Origin: an uncultured Lutimaribacter sp.
GTDB taxonomy: Bacteria; Pseudomonadota; Alphaproteobacteria; Rhodobacterales; Rhodobacteraceae
DNA length: 64,000 nt
Reading direction: 5' to 3'
NCBI GenBank assembly: GCA_913061505.1
Contig: CAJXSO010000008.1
Location: 1 to 64,000, forward strand
The position numbers and the translations under genes are program-made. The notes beneath the pieces were generated by a model, which was not told the DNA's origin, searched no databases, and was given only the letters and a program-made list of their open reading frames with translations. Numbering within the stretch: the first letter of the stretch is position 1; every line of letters starts with the position of its first letter. Positions 18-29,265 of the stretch are shown piece after piece.

Positions 18-1709
18 ATGAGCATCGACCCAATCACACTGGCGGTTCTGGCCGGGCGCATGGAGCAGATCGCCGATGAAATGGACGCCACGCTGTTTCG
101 CGCGGCCTTTAACCCGATCATCGCCGAGGCGCATGATGCCAGCCATGGCCTTTATCACGCGGCCAGCGGCGATACGCTGGTGCAGGGCAAATCTGGCCTG
201 CCCATTTTCGTGGGCGTGATGTCTTTTGCGGTGAAAGCCGTGATCGATAAATACGGCCAAAGCGGCGATTTGGCCGATGGTGATATCTTTATCTTTAACG
301 ATGCCCATATCGGCGGCACGCACCTGTCTGATATGCGCCTTGTGCGCCCCTATTTCCACGATGGGCAGCTGTTTTGCTGGTTGGCCTCGGTGGGGCATTG
401 GCACGATATGGGCGGCGCTGTGCCCGGCAACTACAACCCTGCGGCCACAGATGCCTTTGCCGAGGCCTTTGTGCTGCCGCCCGTGCGCCTGGCGCGCGCC
501 GGTGCGATCAACCAGGATGTGATCGACATTTTGCTGCGCAACACCCGGCTGCCGCAATCAGCGCAGGGCGATTTGAATGGCCAGCTGGGCGCCTTGGATC
601 TGGGCGTGCGCCGCATGGACGAGCTGTTGGCCGAATATGGCCCCGATACCGTGCGCGCAGGGCTGGATGCGCTGGGCGAACGGGCCGAAACCCTGATGCG
701 CGCCGAATTGCGCGACCTGCCCGATGGCACCTGGAGCGCGACAGATTACCTCGATAACGACGGCATCACCGACACGCCCCTGCCCATCACCGTGACCTTG
801 CGCATCAAGGGCTGCGAAATGGAGCTGGATTTCACCGGCACGGCCGCACGCTGCGCGGGGCCTGTGAATATTGCGCGGCCCACCGCGGTGGCCACGGCCT
901 ATGTGGCGATCAAACATATCTTTCCCGCCCTGCCCGCCAACGCCGGCGTGATGCGCCCGATCACGGTCACCATCCCCGAAGGCTCGCTTTTGTCGGCAGA
1001 ATTTCCCGCCCCCGTCGGCGGCTATACCGAAACCATCTTGCGCATGATCGATGTGATATTCTCGGCCATGGCGCAGGCCGCGCCTGGGCGCGTGGTGGCC
1101 AATGCCTATGGCACAATCAATGCGCTGTCGATTGCGGGAAAGCGCGCCAATGGCAAACCTTGGGTGATGTTCTCTTTCTACGGCGGCGGCCATGGCGGCA
1201 CGCCCGAGGGCGATGGGCTAAACCATGGCAATGCGCCGATTTCCACCGCCACCATCCCGCCTTTGGAAATTCTCGAGGCGGCCTATCCGGTGATGTTCAA
1301 ACAATGGGCGCTGCGCCCCGATAGCGCGGGCGCGGGCACCCATCGCGGCGGGCTGGGTGCGGTCTATGAGATTGAAGTGCTGGAAGAAAACGGCGCCGAG
1401 GCCTTTTTGTTTGGCGAGCGTGGCCGCTTTGCCCCCCAGGGTGTGGCCGGTGGCGCCCAGGCGGCCTGCAATAGCTTTGCATATATGCAAGACGATGGGT
1501 GGCACCAGCCACCTATGGCGTCAAAAATGCGCGGCATTCGCCTGCAACAGGGCCAATCTGTGCGCCTGGAAACCCCCGGCGGCGGCGGCTATGGCGCGCC
1601 CGAAGGGCGTAACCCGAAACTGGTGGCCCAGGATGTGGCCATGGGCTTTGTCTCGGCCGAAAACGCCACCCGGCTCTATGGGCCCGCCTGGCAGGAGGAA
1701 CAGCCATGA
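18..1709 (+). CDS. hyuB: Hydantoinase B/oxoprolinase family protein (HyuB)
   Basis: This is the 563-residue beta-type subunit of an ATP-dependent hydantoinase/5-oxoprolinase-like enzyme, which with HyuA opens a cyclic amide (hydantoin, oxoproline, acetophenone carboxylation and related chemistries are known for the family). The HyuB fold runs along the whole length, with the conserved FNDAHIGGTHLSD segment at residues 93-105 and the Gly-rich GGGGYG end motif. The ATG at 18 gives the usual N-terminus (PITLAVLAGRM). The gene overlaps hyuA by 4 bases (ATGA), so the two are translationally coupled. It is the first gene seen of a five-gene operon that may start upstream of the window. The substrate cannot be read from the sequence. 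Confidence 0.93.
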   Translation: MSIDPITLAVLAGRMEQIADEMDATLFRAAFNPIIAEAHDASHGLYHAASGDTLVQGKSGLPIFVGVMSFAVKAVIDKYGQSGDLADGDIFIFNDAHIGGTHLSDMRLVRPYFHDGQLFCWLASVGHWHDMGGAVPGNYNPAATDAFAEAFVLPPVRLARAGAINQDVIDILLRNTRLPQSAQGDLNGQLGALDLGVRRMDELLAEYGPDTVRAGLDALGERAETLMRAELRDLPDGTWSATDYLDNDGITDTPLPITVTLRIKGCEMELDFTGTAARCAGPVNIARPTAVATAYVAIKHIFPALPANAGVMRPITVTIPEGSLLSAEFPAPVGGYTETILRMIDVIFSAMAQAAPGRVVANAYGTINALSIAGKRANGKPWVMFSFYGGGHGGTPEGDGLNHGNAPISTATIPPLEILEAAYPVMFKQWALRPDSAGAGTHRGGLGAVYEIEVLEENGAEAFLFGERGRFAPQGVAGGAQAACNSFAYMQDDGWHQPPMASKMRGIRLQQGQSVRLETPGGGGYGAPEGRNPKLVAQDVAMGFVSAENATRLYGPAWQEEQP

Positions 1710-25648: not shown

Positions 25649-25891
25649 TCCAAAACCGGCGCGGGGAAATGCGCCACTATCGGGGGCAGAGTGTGCAACA
25701 ATTTTGCGACACTTCTATGACAGGCACAGCCCGCAGAAAATCGCCACGCGCCTAAAAATACCGCGCCCCGGCCCTTGAGCGGAAAAAAATCTGTCCTTAA
25801 TCGTCAATAGGCTATGGTGGCCGTTACGTCATAGCGGAAGTAGATGTAATTATTTTATTATTTCTCTATAGTGTTGGTGCGAACAAGGAAT

Positions 25892-26806
25892 ATGGCGACG
25901 ATGGATTGGGATAAACTGCGAATTTTTCACGCTGTTGCCGATGCGGGCAGCCTGACCCATGCGGGCGATGCCCTGCATCTTAGCCAATCTGCCGTCAGCC
26001 GGCAGGTGCGGGCGCTGGAAGAAAGCCTGAACACCACCCTGTTTCACCGCCACGCCCGCGGCCTGATTTTAACAGAACAGGGCGAATTGCTGTTTGATGC
26101 TACATCGGCCATGGCCAAACGGCTTGATGCGGCATCGGCGCGCATTCGCGACAGCGAAGACGAGGTGTTTGGCGAATTGCGCGTCACCACCACCACCGGC
26201 TTTGGCAGCTTGTGGCTGGCCCCACGCCTGCCCGCGCTTTACGAGAAATACCCGGATCTGAAAATCGAACTGATGCTGGAAGAACGGGTGCTGGATTTGC
26301 CCATGCGCGAGGCAGATGTGGCCATTCGCATGAAAGAACCCAGCCAAGCGGATTTGATCCGCAAACGCCTGATGGCGGTAAAAATGCGCCTTTATGCCTC
26401 GCAGGCCTATATCGAACGCAGCGGCATGCCCACCGTGCCCGATGACCTGCGCCACCACCGCCTGATTTGCCAAAACCCCACATCTGCGCAGGTGGGTGCG
26501 GGCGCACAGCTGGTGCAAACCCTGATGGCGCATCAGCCGCGCTCGACCCTGACGGTGAACAATTACTTTGGCGTGCTGCAGGCGGTGCTGCACGATTTGG
26601 GCATTGGCGTTCTGCCCGATTATCTGACCCAGGATTTTCCCGATCTGGTCGAGGTGCTGCCCGAGGTCGAATCAACCGATGTTCCGGTATTTTTGGCCTA
26701 TCCCGAAGAGCTGAGGCACTCAAAACGGGTGTCAGCCTTTCGGGAATTCGTGCAAGACGAGATTATTGCCTATCGCAAACGGGTGAAAGATCAGGCAGTT
26801 AGCTAA
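25892..26806 (+). CDS. LysR family transcriptional regulator
   Basis: The regulator of about 304 residues has an N-terminal winged helix-turn-helix (WDKLRIFHAVADAGSLTHAGDALHLSQSAVSRQVRALE, cited in part) and a LysR substrate-binding domain. Start is ambiguous: ATG 25892 is 2 bases behind AAGGA, ATG 25901 is 11 bases behind it. A 243-base region upstream with an AT-rich stretch (25845-25880, TATAGT at 25867) holds its promoter. No obvious target gene adjoins it except the divergent acyltransferase. Its own terminator follows. Confidence 0.92.
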   Translation: MATMDWDKLRIFHAVADAGSLTHAGDALHLSQSAVSRQVRALEESLNTTLFHRHARGLILTEQGELLFDATSAMAKRLDAASARIRDSEDEVFGELRVTTTTGFGSLWLAPRLPALYEKYPDLKIELMLEERVLDLPMREADVAIRMKEPSQADLIRKRLMAVKMRLYASQAYIERSGMPTVPDDLRHHRLICQNPTSAQVGAGAQLVQTLMAHQPRSTLTVNNYFGVLQAVLHDLGIGVLPDYLTQDFPDLVEVLPEVESTDVPVFLAYPEELRHSKRVSAFREFVQDEIIAYRKRVKDQAVS

Positions 26807-26842
26807 CAAATTAAGCAAGCCATGCATTCTGCGCATACCGGG

Positions 26843-26868
26843 CATGCTGCACTTGCGGCATGTTTTTT
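26843..26868 (+). terminator. Rho-independent terminator of the LysR gene
   Basis: CATGCTGC, loop ACTT, GCGGCATG (one G-T pair) is followed by six T residues. It lies 36 bases behind the LysR stop codon. Confidence 0.8.
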
Positions 26869-26869
26869 C

Positions 26870-26898
26870 TTGATTGGACAAGAACAGATACCTAATTG
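26870..26898 (+). promoter_or_regulatory. Possible promoter of the intergenic small RNA
   Basis: TTGATT (26870-26875) begins right after the LysR terminator T tract; 17 bases later is TAATTG (26893-26898). The -35 is fair and the -10 is weak, so this is tentative. Confidence 0.35.
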
Positions 26899-26904
26899 AG
26901 CACG

Positions 26905-26987
26905 TGACGGTGATGACGATTAGTTTCTCATCATCTTCATACCTCCCTGTTGGACTTCGGCCGAGCTTAGCGCTCGGCCTTTTTTTT
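26905..26987 (+). ncRNA. Candidate small RNA between two terminators
   Basis: A segment of about 83 nt between the LysR terminator and purL carries its own strong terminator. From 5' to 3' it shows an 8-bp stem (26909-26916 with 26928-26935, one G-U pair) with an 11-base loop, an unpaired stretch with ACCTCCCT (26941-26948), which is complementary to ribosome binding sites, and the terminator hairpin at 26959-26987. This layout is that of a trans-acting small RNA; C-rich CCUCC motifs are known in stress-induced small RNAs of Rhodobacter. The 5' end is estimated from the putative promoter. An attenuator-like leader of purL is the alternative. Confidence 0.55.
26959..26987 (+). terminator. Strong rho-independent terminator upstream of purL
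   Basis: GGCCGAGC, a five-base loop, GCTCGGCC and eight T residues. The T tract is on the plus strand only, so it ends a plus-strand transcript that starts after the LysR terminator. Confidence 0.9.
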
Positions 26988-27105: not shown

Positions 27106-29265
27106 ATGCAAGAACCCGCCATCACGCCCGACCTGATTGCCGCTCATGGCTTAAAGCCCGACGAATACGAGCGCATTCTGGATATCATCGGTCGCGCGCC
27201 CAGTTTCACCGAGCTTGGCATTTTCTCGGCCATGTGGAACGAACATTGTTCTTACAAATCCTCGAAAAAATGGCTGCGCACCCTGCCCACCAGCGGCCCA
27301 CAGGTTATTTGTGGCCCCGGTGAAAACGCCGGCGTTGTCGATATCGGCGATGGTCAGGCGGTGGTGTTCAAAATGGAAAGCCACAACCACCCCAGCTATA
27401 TCGAGCCCTACCAAGGTGCGGCCACCGGCGTGGGCGGCATTTTGCGCGATGTCTTCACCATGGGGGCGCGCCCGATTGCGGCGATGAATTCGCTGTCTTT
27501 CGGGCAGGTCGATCACCCCAAAACCCGCCAGCTTGTGCATGGCGTGGTCGAGGGTATCGGCGGCTATGGCAACTGCTTTGGCGTGCCCACCGTGGGCGGC
27601 GAAGTGCGCTTTCACCCCGCCTATAACGGCAATTGCCTGGTCAATGCCTTTGCCGCAGGCCTGGCTGATGCCGATAAGATCTTTTATTCCGCCGCATCCG
27701 GCGTGGGCATGCCTGTGGTGTATCTGGGCGCCAAAACCGGGCGCGATGGCGTGGGCGGCGCCACGATGGCCAGCGCCGAGTTTGACGAAACCATCGAGGA
27801 AAAGCGCCCCACCGTGCAGGTGGGCGACCCCTTTACCGAAAAGCGCCTGATGGAGGCCTGCCTAGAGCTGATGCAAACCGGCGCGGTGATCTCTATCCAG
27901 GATATGGGCGCCGCCGGCCTGACATGCTCGGCCGTGGAAATGGGCGACAAAGGCGGCCTGGGCATCAAGCTGCAGCTTGATGACGTGCCCCAGCGCGAGG
28001 CCAATATGACAGCCTATGAAATGATGCTGTCAGAAAGCCAAGAGCGCATGCTGATGGTGCTGCGCCCCGAAAAAGAGGCCCAGGCGCGCGCGGTGTTTGA
28101 AAAATGGGATCTGGATTTCGCCATCGTGGGCGAAACCATTCCCGAAGACCGCTTCTTGATTTTGCACAAAAATCAGGTGATGGCAGATCTGCCCTTGTCG
28201 AAACTGTCCTCGTCGGCGCCCGAATACGACCGCCCCTGGGTGCCCACCCCTGCCGCAGAACCGCTGCAAGACGTGCCTGCCATTGACCCGATCGACGGGC
28301 TAAAGGCGCTGCTGGCCACGCCAAACTACGCCGCCAAGCAATGGGTTTATGAACAATACGACTCGATGGTGATGGCCGACAGCCTGCGCACCCCGGGCCT
28401 GGGGGCGGGCATTGTGCGCGTGCATGGCACCGACAAGGCGCTGGCCTTTACATCAGATGTCACACCCCGCTATGTGCGCGCCAACCCCGTCGAGGGCGGC
28501 AAACAAGCCGTGGCCGAGGCCTATCGCAACCTGGTGGCAGTGGGCGCGCGGCCCTTGGCCACCACCGACAACCTGAATTTCGGCAACCCCGAAAAGCCCG
28601 AAATCATGGGCCAGTTCGTGGGCGCCATCCAGGGCATTGGCGCCGCTTGTCAGGCGCTGGATACGCCCATCGTTTCCGGCAATGTCTCGCTTTATAACGA
28701 AACCGATGGCCAGCCCATTCTGCCCACCCCCACCATCTGCGCCGTGGGCCTGATCGACACGCCAGAGCAGGCCATTTTGGGCACAGCCCGCGATGGCCAT
28801 GTGGCGCTGCTGATTGGCGAAACCACCGGGCATCTGGGGCAATCGGCACTGCTGGCCGAGGTGTTCAACCGCGAAGAGGGCGATGCCCCCGCCGTGGATC
28901 TTGCGGCCGAAAAACGCAATGGTCAGTTCATCTTGGATAATCACGCCCTGATCACCGCCTGCACCGATCTGGCCGATGGCGGTTTGGCCATGGCCGCCTT
29001 TGAAATGGCCGAAGCCGCAGGTGTTGGCATTGTCTTGGACGACAGCGATATGGGCCAGCTTTTTGGCGAAGATCAGGCGCGCTATCTGGTGGCGTGCAAC
29101 TTTGACAAGGCCGAGGCGCTGATGGTGGCCGCCGCCAGCGCGGGCGTGCCCATTCGCAGCGTGGGCCGCTTTGCCGGCGATAGCGTGCGCCTGGGCCAGG
29201 CCGAGGCACCGCTGGCCGATCTGGCGGCCCTCTATCGTGGTGCTTTTGCACAGGCGCTGGCCTAA
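27106..29265 (+). CDS. purL: Phosphoribosylformylglycinamidine synthase subunit PurL
   Basis: The 719-residue small-type PurL makes FGAM from FGAR, ATP and ammonia (with PurS and PurQ) in purine synthesis. Conserved blocks [25 protein letters not shown] and [21 protein letters not shown] are present, and the C-terminal AIR synthase-type domain is complete. The ATG at 27106 is chosen (N-terminus [20 protein letters not shown]) over the long upstream frame, with GGGGAA before it; ATG 27094 is possible. Confidence 0.96.

Follow-up and report, generated by a model that had tools for sequence, protein, structure and literature searches.

Does the short stretch between a lysR gene and purL in the window, i.e. 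the whole 64,000 nt of DNA analysed, encode an RNA of its own and, if so, which RNA is it and what controls it? The initial annotation had read the stretch as a stand-alone, terminated small RNA (sRNA) acting in trans through an anti-ribosome-site motif, and had pointed to a possible promoter, a stem-loop, an unpaired motif and two terminators in a row. Table 1 collects the features of the locus.

Table 1. Features of the lysR-purL locus, with positions in the window
Feature	Position	Strand	Remarks
lysR	25871..26806	+	start codon uncertain; conserved protein begins MDWDKL; reciprocal best hit of LsrB/VtlR
LysR-type box ATGC-N7-GCAT (window: TGCA-N6-GCAT), predicted LsrB-type operator	26822..26836		recognised by comparison of 41 loci
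Second dyad ATGCTGCACTTGCGGCAT	26844..26861		directly upstream of -35; with the T-run 26863-26868 earlier taken as the LysR terminator
-35 element CTTGAT	26869..26874	+	TTG in 41/41, preceding C in 40/41 orthologues
-10 element CTAATT	26892..26897	+	spacer 17 nt in 38/41, last T in 41/41
sRNA gene, SorY orthologue	26904..26987	+	~84 nt; SorY model 56.1 bits, E 8e-11
5' hairpin	26904..26940	+	structure kept, sequence variable; at least 7 pairs in 41/41
Exposed core ACCUCCCUGUUGGAC, predicted seed	26941..26955	+	invariant in 41/41 (13 letters by construction); common to the SorX orthologue
Intrinsic terminator	26959..26987	+	hairpin 26959-26979, 8 pairs (7 GC), then eight T
purL	27106..29265	+	NCBIfam PurL 979 bits; next downstream gene, outside the RNA

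Anatomy of the small RNA gene

The anatomy of the gene can be read directly from the DNA, with a 5' hairpin followed by the exposed ACCUCCCUGUUGGAC and then by a GC-rich hairpin and eight T, the 5' end being placed to within ±2 nt by analogy with the mapped start of the Rhodobacter sphaeroides RNA at 1,632,642 (PMC6238624) and with contig C4 of genome G067. Folding of 26903-26987 gives -33.2 kcal/mol versus a shuffle mean of -17.5 (z -5.75; none of 200 shuffles folds as well). The stem-loop that had been claimed is present, with 14 pairs in the 5' hairpin of the window RNA (L001), and the motif claimed to be unpaired, ACCUCCCU, is predicted to be so with a probability of 0.73 on average in this RNA.

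Relatives were drawn from 46 non-redundant best-scoring loci including the window (22 and 30 minus 6 duplicates, with the eight weak loci L023-L030 dropped), 43 of which carry a lysR orthologue directly upstream. Selection of lysR-linked loci with the exact 13-letter core, ACCTCCCTGTTGG, removed L017 and L020 and left a set of 41 for close study, the window RNA and 40 relatives. As an alignment of the 5' arms by MAFFT is unreliable, each sequence was folded alone; all 41 arms are more stable than their own shuffles (z < -2, mean -3.57), while the sequences themselves diverge widely, with a median pairwise alignment score of 0.46 of the maximum. Invariance of the 13-letter core is by construction, since it was required when the set was chosen, but ACT, the three letters that follow it and were not required, is also invariant in 41/41. 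Across the set, the mean unpaired probability of ACCUCCCU has a median of 0.73; the mean falls below 0.5 in three loci and never exceeds 0.8 because a mini-hairpin of two pairs is predicted there. At L049, GUUGGACU, adjacent to ACCUCCCU, is predicted to be paired.

Terminators in a row, which had been put forward as strong grounds for a separate transcript, do not carry that argument, as four terminator-like sites in the 3-kb region compare with a shuffle mean of 3.6 and the number by itself proves nothing. Both hairpins exist, although the label of the upstream one (26843-26868) as simply the LysR terminator is doubtful, as discussed below. It is by its anatomy and position, conserved in 40 relatives, that the feature stands far above chance, and the observation of an sRNA gene at this place is confirmed.

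Relationship to SorY and SorX

At the curated cut-offs of Rfam, no family matches anywhere in the window. Without cut-off, the sRNA stretch is matched by SorY (RF02651; 56.1 bits, E 8e-11) and SorX (RF02784; 45.8 bits, E 4e-10), which miss their cut-offs of 111 and 46.6 bits, respectively, and the third-best family reaches 26.5 bits. In the covariance search that had been proposed along with the sRNA reading, the SorY model matches 112 of 120 genomes of the family at E <= 0.01, while the narrow Rfam cut-off is passed in one. The single genome above it is G067, whose match at C4:1632645 lies three bases from the start mapped for R. sphaeroides SorY at 1,632,642 (PMC6238624); G067 is hence taken to be the R. 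sphaeroides strain of the published start or one very like it. When the window genome and 40 relatives were searched at the DNA level, 36 of these 41 genomes had a match at E <= 1, those from outside the family being all weak.

Position and sequence, both observed directly, agree: the gene lies between orthologues of lysR and purL, in the same order as in G067, and the core UUCAUACCUCCCUGUUGGACUU, the 5' hairpin and the terminator are present. On these sequence grounds, orthology with R. sphaeroides SorY, by position as well as by sequence, is well supported, by which the trans-acting anti-ribosome-site sRNA of the initial annotation appears to have been the right reading. The window genome (G000) also has a SorX orthologue, outside the window at G000:C2:105077-105159 (L061 2078-2160, minus strand), which scores 79 versus the cut-off of 46.6 bits and sits behind a gene that by eye resembles a response regulator. 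At L013, two adjacent SorY-like copies (1319-1390 and 1502-1584, minus strand) lie behind one lysR. The accessible portions of sRNA surveys of R. pomeroyi and P. denitrificans hold no entry assignable to the locus.

Promoter and upstream elements

A generic sigma-70 scan found no promoter at the sRNA; the possible promoter suspected earlier nevertheless emerges from the comparison of orthologues as CTTGAT-N17-CTAATT, in the same register as that of R. sphaeroides SorY, with the counts of Table 1 anchored on a scan favouring CTTGA and CTAAAT. The consensus is CTTGAA-N16-CCTATAT for RpoH1 of S. meliloti and CTTGAC-N17-CTATAT for alphaproteobacterial RpoD (both quoted in PMC8844928), and because the promoter resembles both, the sigma factor is not distinguishable by sequence.

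Further upstream, in the 75 nt before the -35 element, a LysR-type box is directly visible as conserved. Its strict form, ATGC-N7-GCAT, occurs in 27 of 41 SorY loci (0.5 on average and never more than 3 in 200 rounds of shuffling), and at least seven of its eight letters are found in 37 of 41 (shuffle mean 4.7, maximum 14 in 50 rounds). In 36 of these 37 recognisable boxes, i.e. at 36 of the 41 SorY promoters, the box starts 46 or 47 nt before -35. The window box has the T-N11-A form published for LsrB, whose site at NfeR1 (-72 to -57) is of this form and is said to resemble that of AbcR1 (PMC10746234), while its right half, GCAT-N3-GG-N3-T, is one letter away from the VtlR box GCAT-N3-TG-N3-T (PMC7486931; PMC8844928).

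A weight matrix trained on 36 Rhodobacteraceae box sites only was applied behind rhizobial lsrB, ahead of AbcR. In 71 of 80 loci the best site there scores no lower than the 99th percentile of the control stretches; when the other strand of the same stretches is read, 17 of 80 pass, as a near-palindrome allows. In 27 loci of other families the median score is 10.6 versus -7.3 in controls, and 19 exceed the 95th percentile (5.7). Only four of the 27 pass the 99th percentile, which at 26.1 is set by two control stretches (L091, L090) with further sites of their own. The distance from box to promoter, 47 nt in Rhodobacteraceae, compares with ~37 nt in a rhizobial example judged by eye, a difference of about one helical turn. 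Two loci of the rhizobial lsrB type, L143 and L187, come from records titled Arenimonas and Bacillus subtilis, which are probably mislabelled or contaminated assemblies. Sites of the form ATGC-N7-GCAT were also counted genome-wide as a candidate regulon, with 75 versus 6 for the reversed pattern, but this control is distrusted and no regulon is claimed.

Between box and promoter lies a terminator-like hairpin (26840-26865) with its T-run. This hairpin overlaps a recurring dyad, since dyads like ATGCTGCACTTGCGGCAT are seen by eye in many orthologous upstream regions, and a T-run of at least five letters is kept in only 8 of 41 orthologous loci, for which reasons the plain label of a LysR terminator is doubtful and the element is better read, at least in part, as a predicted regulator-binding element.

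The neighbouring LysR protein

Among solved structures, the LysR protein best matches 9HH1 (E 2e-70), the Agrobacterium LsrB (PMC11975290). Reciprocal hits are observed directly: LsrB finds this lysR in the window genome with 239 bits versus 135 for the next LysR, and the window protein finds lsrB in an Agrobacterium, an Ensifer and a Hoeflea genome with 240-243 bits versus 152-155 for the next. By reciprocal best hit, the protein is thus the orthologue of LsrB/VtlR. Matches at E <= 1e-60 are present in 103 of 190 genomes of the class, and VtlR/LsrB has been reported from many Alphaproteobacteria (PMC7486931), which together with the reciprocal hits speaks against LsrB being unique to Rhizobiales, as a section heading in PMC11975290 has it and with which the orthologue found here fits badly.

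In Agrobacterium LsrB, the cysteines C144, C236, C244 and C273 are modified, of which C144 and C273 are reportedly kept in S. meliloti and B. abortus (PMC11975290). None of these four columns holds a cysteine in any of 40 aligned Rhodobacteraceae sequences, that of the window included, so that the Rhodobacteraceae protein cannot use a thiol switch of the LsrB kind. Among 87 orthologues of other families, a cysteine occurs at C144 in seven, at C236 in six and at C244 and C273 in none. Another cysteine (HRLICQNP) is kept in 31 of the 40 Rhodobacteraceae proteins.

An RNA-like module behind lsrB-like genes across the class

If the regulator and the RNA belong together, does the arrangement reach beyond Rhodobacteraceae? 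For 97 loci, up to 700 nt behind the lysR orthologue were examined, with up to 700 nt in front as control. Ten are from Rhodobacteraceae (L292, the weaker second match of G018, excluded) and 87 from other families, 27 from the class search and 60 from the remaining 74 rows, with four at contig ends and the ten lowest-scoring left out. Behind the gene, the strict box is found in 49 of the 97 loci, the core CCUCCC[UA]G in 61, core and terminator in 51 and all three in 36, versus 3, 2, 0 and 0 in front of it on either strand; in the 87 other-family loci the counts behind the gene are 44, 56, 47 and 32. Under a slightly different rule, RNA-like modules that combine CCUCCC[UA]G with a T-run turn up in 49 of these 87 loci, in 34 of which GUCUCCCAGACGU precedes the core, while none is seen in 38. 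The modules come from among L081-L107 and L222-L281, and in the 17 loci scanned the listed Rfam matches lie under the cut-offs; L090 and L091 carry two boxes behind the gene.

The two helices of the module covary, with 84.7% of cells paired and none of 500 shuffles reaching any of five measures, for a consensus structure drawn by hand from the same alignment, all six slid versions of which score lower. A model, R3, built only from the 49 non-Rhodobacteraceae modules, which were found via the LysR protein and not via SorY, matches the window sRNA with 35.3 bits (E 7e-7; next match in the window 15.3 bits) and also all 46 Rhodobacteraceae sources tried (28-48 bits), which had been picked beforehand as SorY- or SorX-like. 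Part of the score is the motif CCTCCC[TA]G itself, as the training rule demanded it. On 40 of the 80 rhizobial loci, however, R3 scores no more than 15.2 bits (E >= 0.14), with nothing at E <= 10 in 28. Since CCTCCCAG and a terminator are present in the AbcR genes of these loci as well, what SorY has in common with the class-wide RNA goes beyond the motif. Both the regulator link and the class-wide family are well supported as a pattern of sequence.

Targets

In R. sphaeroides, SorY acts on the mRNA of takP by influencing how stable it is (PMC6238624). The takP ribosome site, AGGGAGG, pairs with the sRNA core. As takP, the gene for the protein of 2HZK was used, which we take to be TakP (depositors' name SmoM). 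Of 61 genomes, 10 have this gene at E <= 1e-120, and the window genome has no close TakP, the best protein showing 38% identity with a weak duplex in front of its gene. Among 12 TakP-like start regions, three (L293, L295, L302) offer contiguous pairing of at least seven letters including CCUCCC, the start codon of L300 not being located. With a close TakP in so few genomes, takP was rejected as the conserved target; the conserved role must lie with other mRNAs and probably involves a broader range of purine-rich ribosome sites, shared with SorX, whose core is identical.

The target search that had been suggested finds CAGGGAGG shortly before an ATG 15 times in the window genome versus none for the reversed-pattern control. 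Three of the 15 matches are the sRNA genes read in antisense, two at this locus and one at SorX, and follow-up covered nine of the other 12 (L210, L211 and L214 were left out). Two of the nine have AACAGGGAGG before a long reading frame, by eye a TAXI-type substrate-binding protein in one case and an acyl-CoA-ligase-like protein in the other. At E 1e-60, the other 60 genomes yield a single relative of the TAXI-like gene; the site is the same there, and the gene may be a target of SorY or SorX. As good ribosome sites have this form in any case, no target is claimed and none is nameable with confidence. In both TAXI-like loci, L305 (G000:C53:10082-11062) and L306 (G021:C25:89842-90822), CGAACAGGGAGGAAGAC stands before the ATG.

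Origin and control of the RNA

Several features are carried over from papers on R. sphaeroides SorY, namely an own promoter without processing, control by RpoE, RpoHI and RpoHII, Hfq and the action on takP. There, the RNA is described as controlled by these sigma factors, directly transcribed without processing and interacting with Hfq (PMC8307010), and is called Hfq-dependent in PMC7866481. Taken as a whole, the locus is very probably best explained as the SorY gene of this Rhodobacteraceae species, with its own promoter, most likely a trans-acting repressor as product and probable activation by LysR. From this promoter, most likely read by an RpoH-type or the housekeeping sigma factor, a primary transcript of ~84 nt would arise, with the LsrB/VtlR-type LysR bound around 26822-26861 as activator. 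The sRNA would then most likely be an Hfq-dependent repressor, whose exposed core would pair with purine-rich ribosome-binding sites (AACAGGGAGGU and shorter) and block translation, probably of nutrient uptake and metabolic genes; that it is expressed and represses targets in the window organism we infer.

That the stretch is instead a cis-acting leader or attenuator of purL, starting near 26904 and ending at 26987 or reading through into purL, is suggested by the start of purL 118 nt downstream on the same strand. Across the 43 lysR-linked loci, however, purL is found in the ~1.5 kb examined downstream in 27 and not seen there in the other 16, and in ten it is ~0.76-1.46 kb from the core; that purL is so often distant or not seen, besides the direct, unprocessed transcription of R. 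sphaeroides SorY (PMC6238624; PMC8307010), makes a leader highly improbable. An RNA cut from the 3'UTR of the lysR mRNA would also fit a gene close behind lysR on the same strand, all the more as read-through is possible where the T-run before -35 is missing, and SorX arises in that way (PMC6238624), yet the almost invariable register of the -35/-10 pair across 41 orthologues, the own start without processing reported for R. sphaeroides SorY (PMC6238624; PMC8307010) and the hairpin with T-run that separates lysR from the sRNA in the window leave such an origin very improbable.

A stress sigma factor might alternatively drive the sRNA alone, the upstream dyads serving only to terminate lysR and LysR being uninvolved. 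The second dyad with its six T would make a workable terminator, the promoter resembles the S. meliloti RpoH1 consensus (PMC8844928), and SorY is described as being under the control of RpoE, RpoHI and RpoHII (PMC8307010). Against this stand the seldom kept T-run, the conservation of letters, beyond mere pairing, at a fixed distance from -35 and the finding of sites behind rhizobial lsrB by a motif trained on Rhodobacteraceae, by which control through the sigma factor alone is unlikely, and activation of the sRNA by the adjacent LysR, as judged from the conserved box and the orthology of the regulator, is probable. In rhizobia, LsrB/VtlR is the activator of AbcR small RNAs, and LsrB is reported to be indispensable for AbcR1 in S. 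meliloti (PMC8844928). Regulator and RNA are not strictly tied, since five of the eight family genomes without a SorY match keep lysR with no such RNA in up to 700 nt (392 nt at L283); G018 has an RNA after all, and the other two lack a LysR at E 1e-40. A related question is whether SorY is truly homologous to the AbcR RNAs of rhizobia, both descending from one ancestral lsrB-linked RNA. Their same place behind orthologous regulators, a similar box and the exposure of CCUCCC in both speak for it, but the AbcR model of Rfam (ar15, RF02345), which recognises AbcR behind lsrB in 8 of 8 rhizobial loci tested, is absent among the matches of the sRNA stretch up to E 5, and the class-wide model is weak at the 40 rhizobial loci, so that common descent is somewhat doubtful.

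Significance

With the SorY reading, an unannotated stretch becomes the orthologue of a studied stress RNA; the sRNA gene is the counterpart of a known RNA, and the link to the regulator and the class-wide family are the new part. Two literatures, on SorY in Rhodobacter and on LsrB/VtlR and AbcR in rhizobia, are thereby connected. Among the open PubMed Central papers searched, which do not include the two primary papers on SorY and SorX, no paper was found that joins SorY with AbcR1, and the available portions of PMC11975290, where LsrB, Rhodobacterales and sRNA occur together, draw no link between them. If the regulator link is true, an easily handled laboratory strain would allow tests of which signal this widespread LysR protein responds to and which genes its RNA regulates. 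A wider proposal, for and against which the sequence patterns are to our mind evenly poised, would place SorY in a family of anti-ribosome-site RNAs that spans the class, is largely uncatalogued and forms a conserved output of LsrB/VtlR in many alphaproteobacterial families, SorY being one branch of it, with AbcR as the rhizobial branch or replacement and, in Rhodobacteraceae, stress input through the sigma factor and a regulator without the redox cysteines.

Comparison with known anti-ribosome-site RNAs

Like AbcR1 and AbcR2 of Rhizobiales (RF02345), the window RNA sits behind an LsrB/VtlR-type gene with an LsrB-type box and exposes CCUCCC, and the inputs proposed for it resemble those of AbcR1/AbcR2, LsrB and RpoH1 (PMC8844928). 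While the AbcR RNAs of S. meliloti are two tandem copies, one under LsrB and the other under RpoH1, the window promoter seems to carry both elements; AbcR is in addition a longer RNA (112-position model), with no sequence-model match to the window RNA. An exposed CCUCCCU and a terminator are also found in alpha-r8 (RF00519, suhB/MmgR; SisA-D of Caulobacter), of which SisA has a broad regulon through its anti-ribosome-site motif (PMC12559287). These RNAs, however, mostly adjoin a gene for N-formylglutamate amidohydrolase (PMC12559287), whereas the window RNA neighbours lysR and purL and, at 25 bits, misses the alpha-r8 cut-off of 41 bits. NfeR1/alpha-r14 has three hairpins, each with CCUCCUCCC (PMC10746234), unlike the two hairpins and single CCUCCC of the window RNA.

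The closest relatives are SorY and SorX. SorX shares the identical ACCUCCCUGUUGGAC core and the same terminator plan, but in R. sphaeroides it is processed out of the 3'UTR that follows an OmpR-like gene (PMC6238624), and the window genome has a SorX orthologue of its own at another place. SorY differs in the sequence of the 5' hairpin, in the score far under the curated cut-off and in takP, which has no close counterpart here, yet it agrees with the window RNA in the position between lysR and purL, the promoter register, the presence of the 5' hairpin, the identical UUCAUACCUCCCUGUUGGACUU and the terminator.
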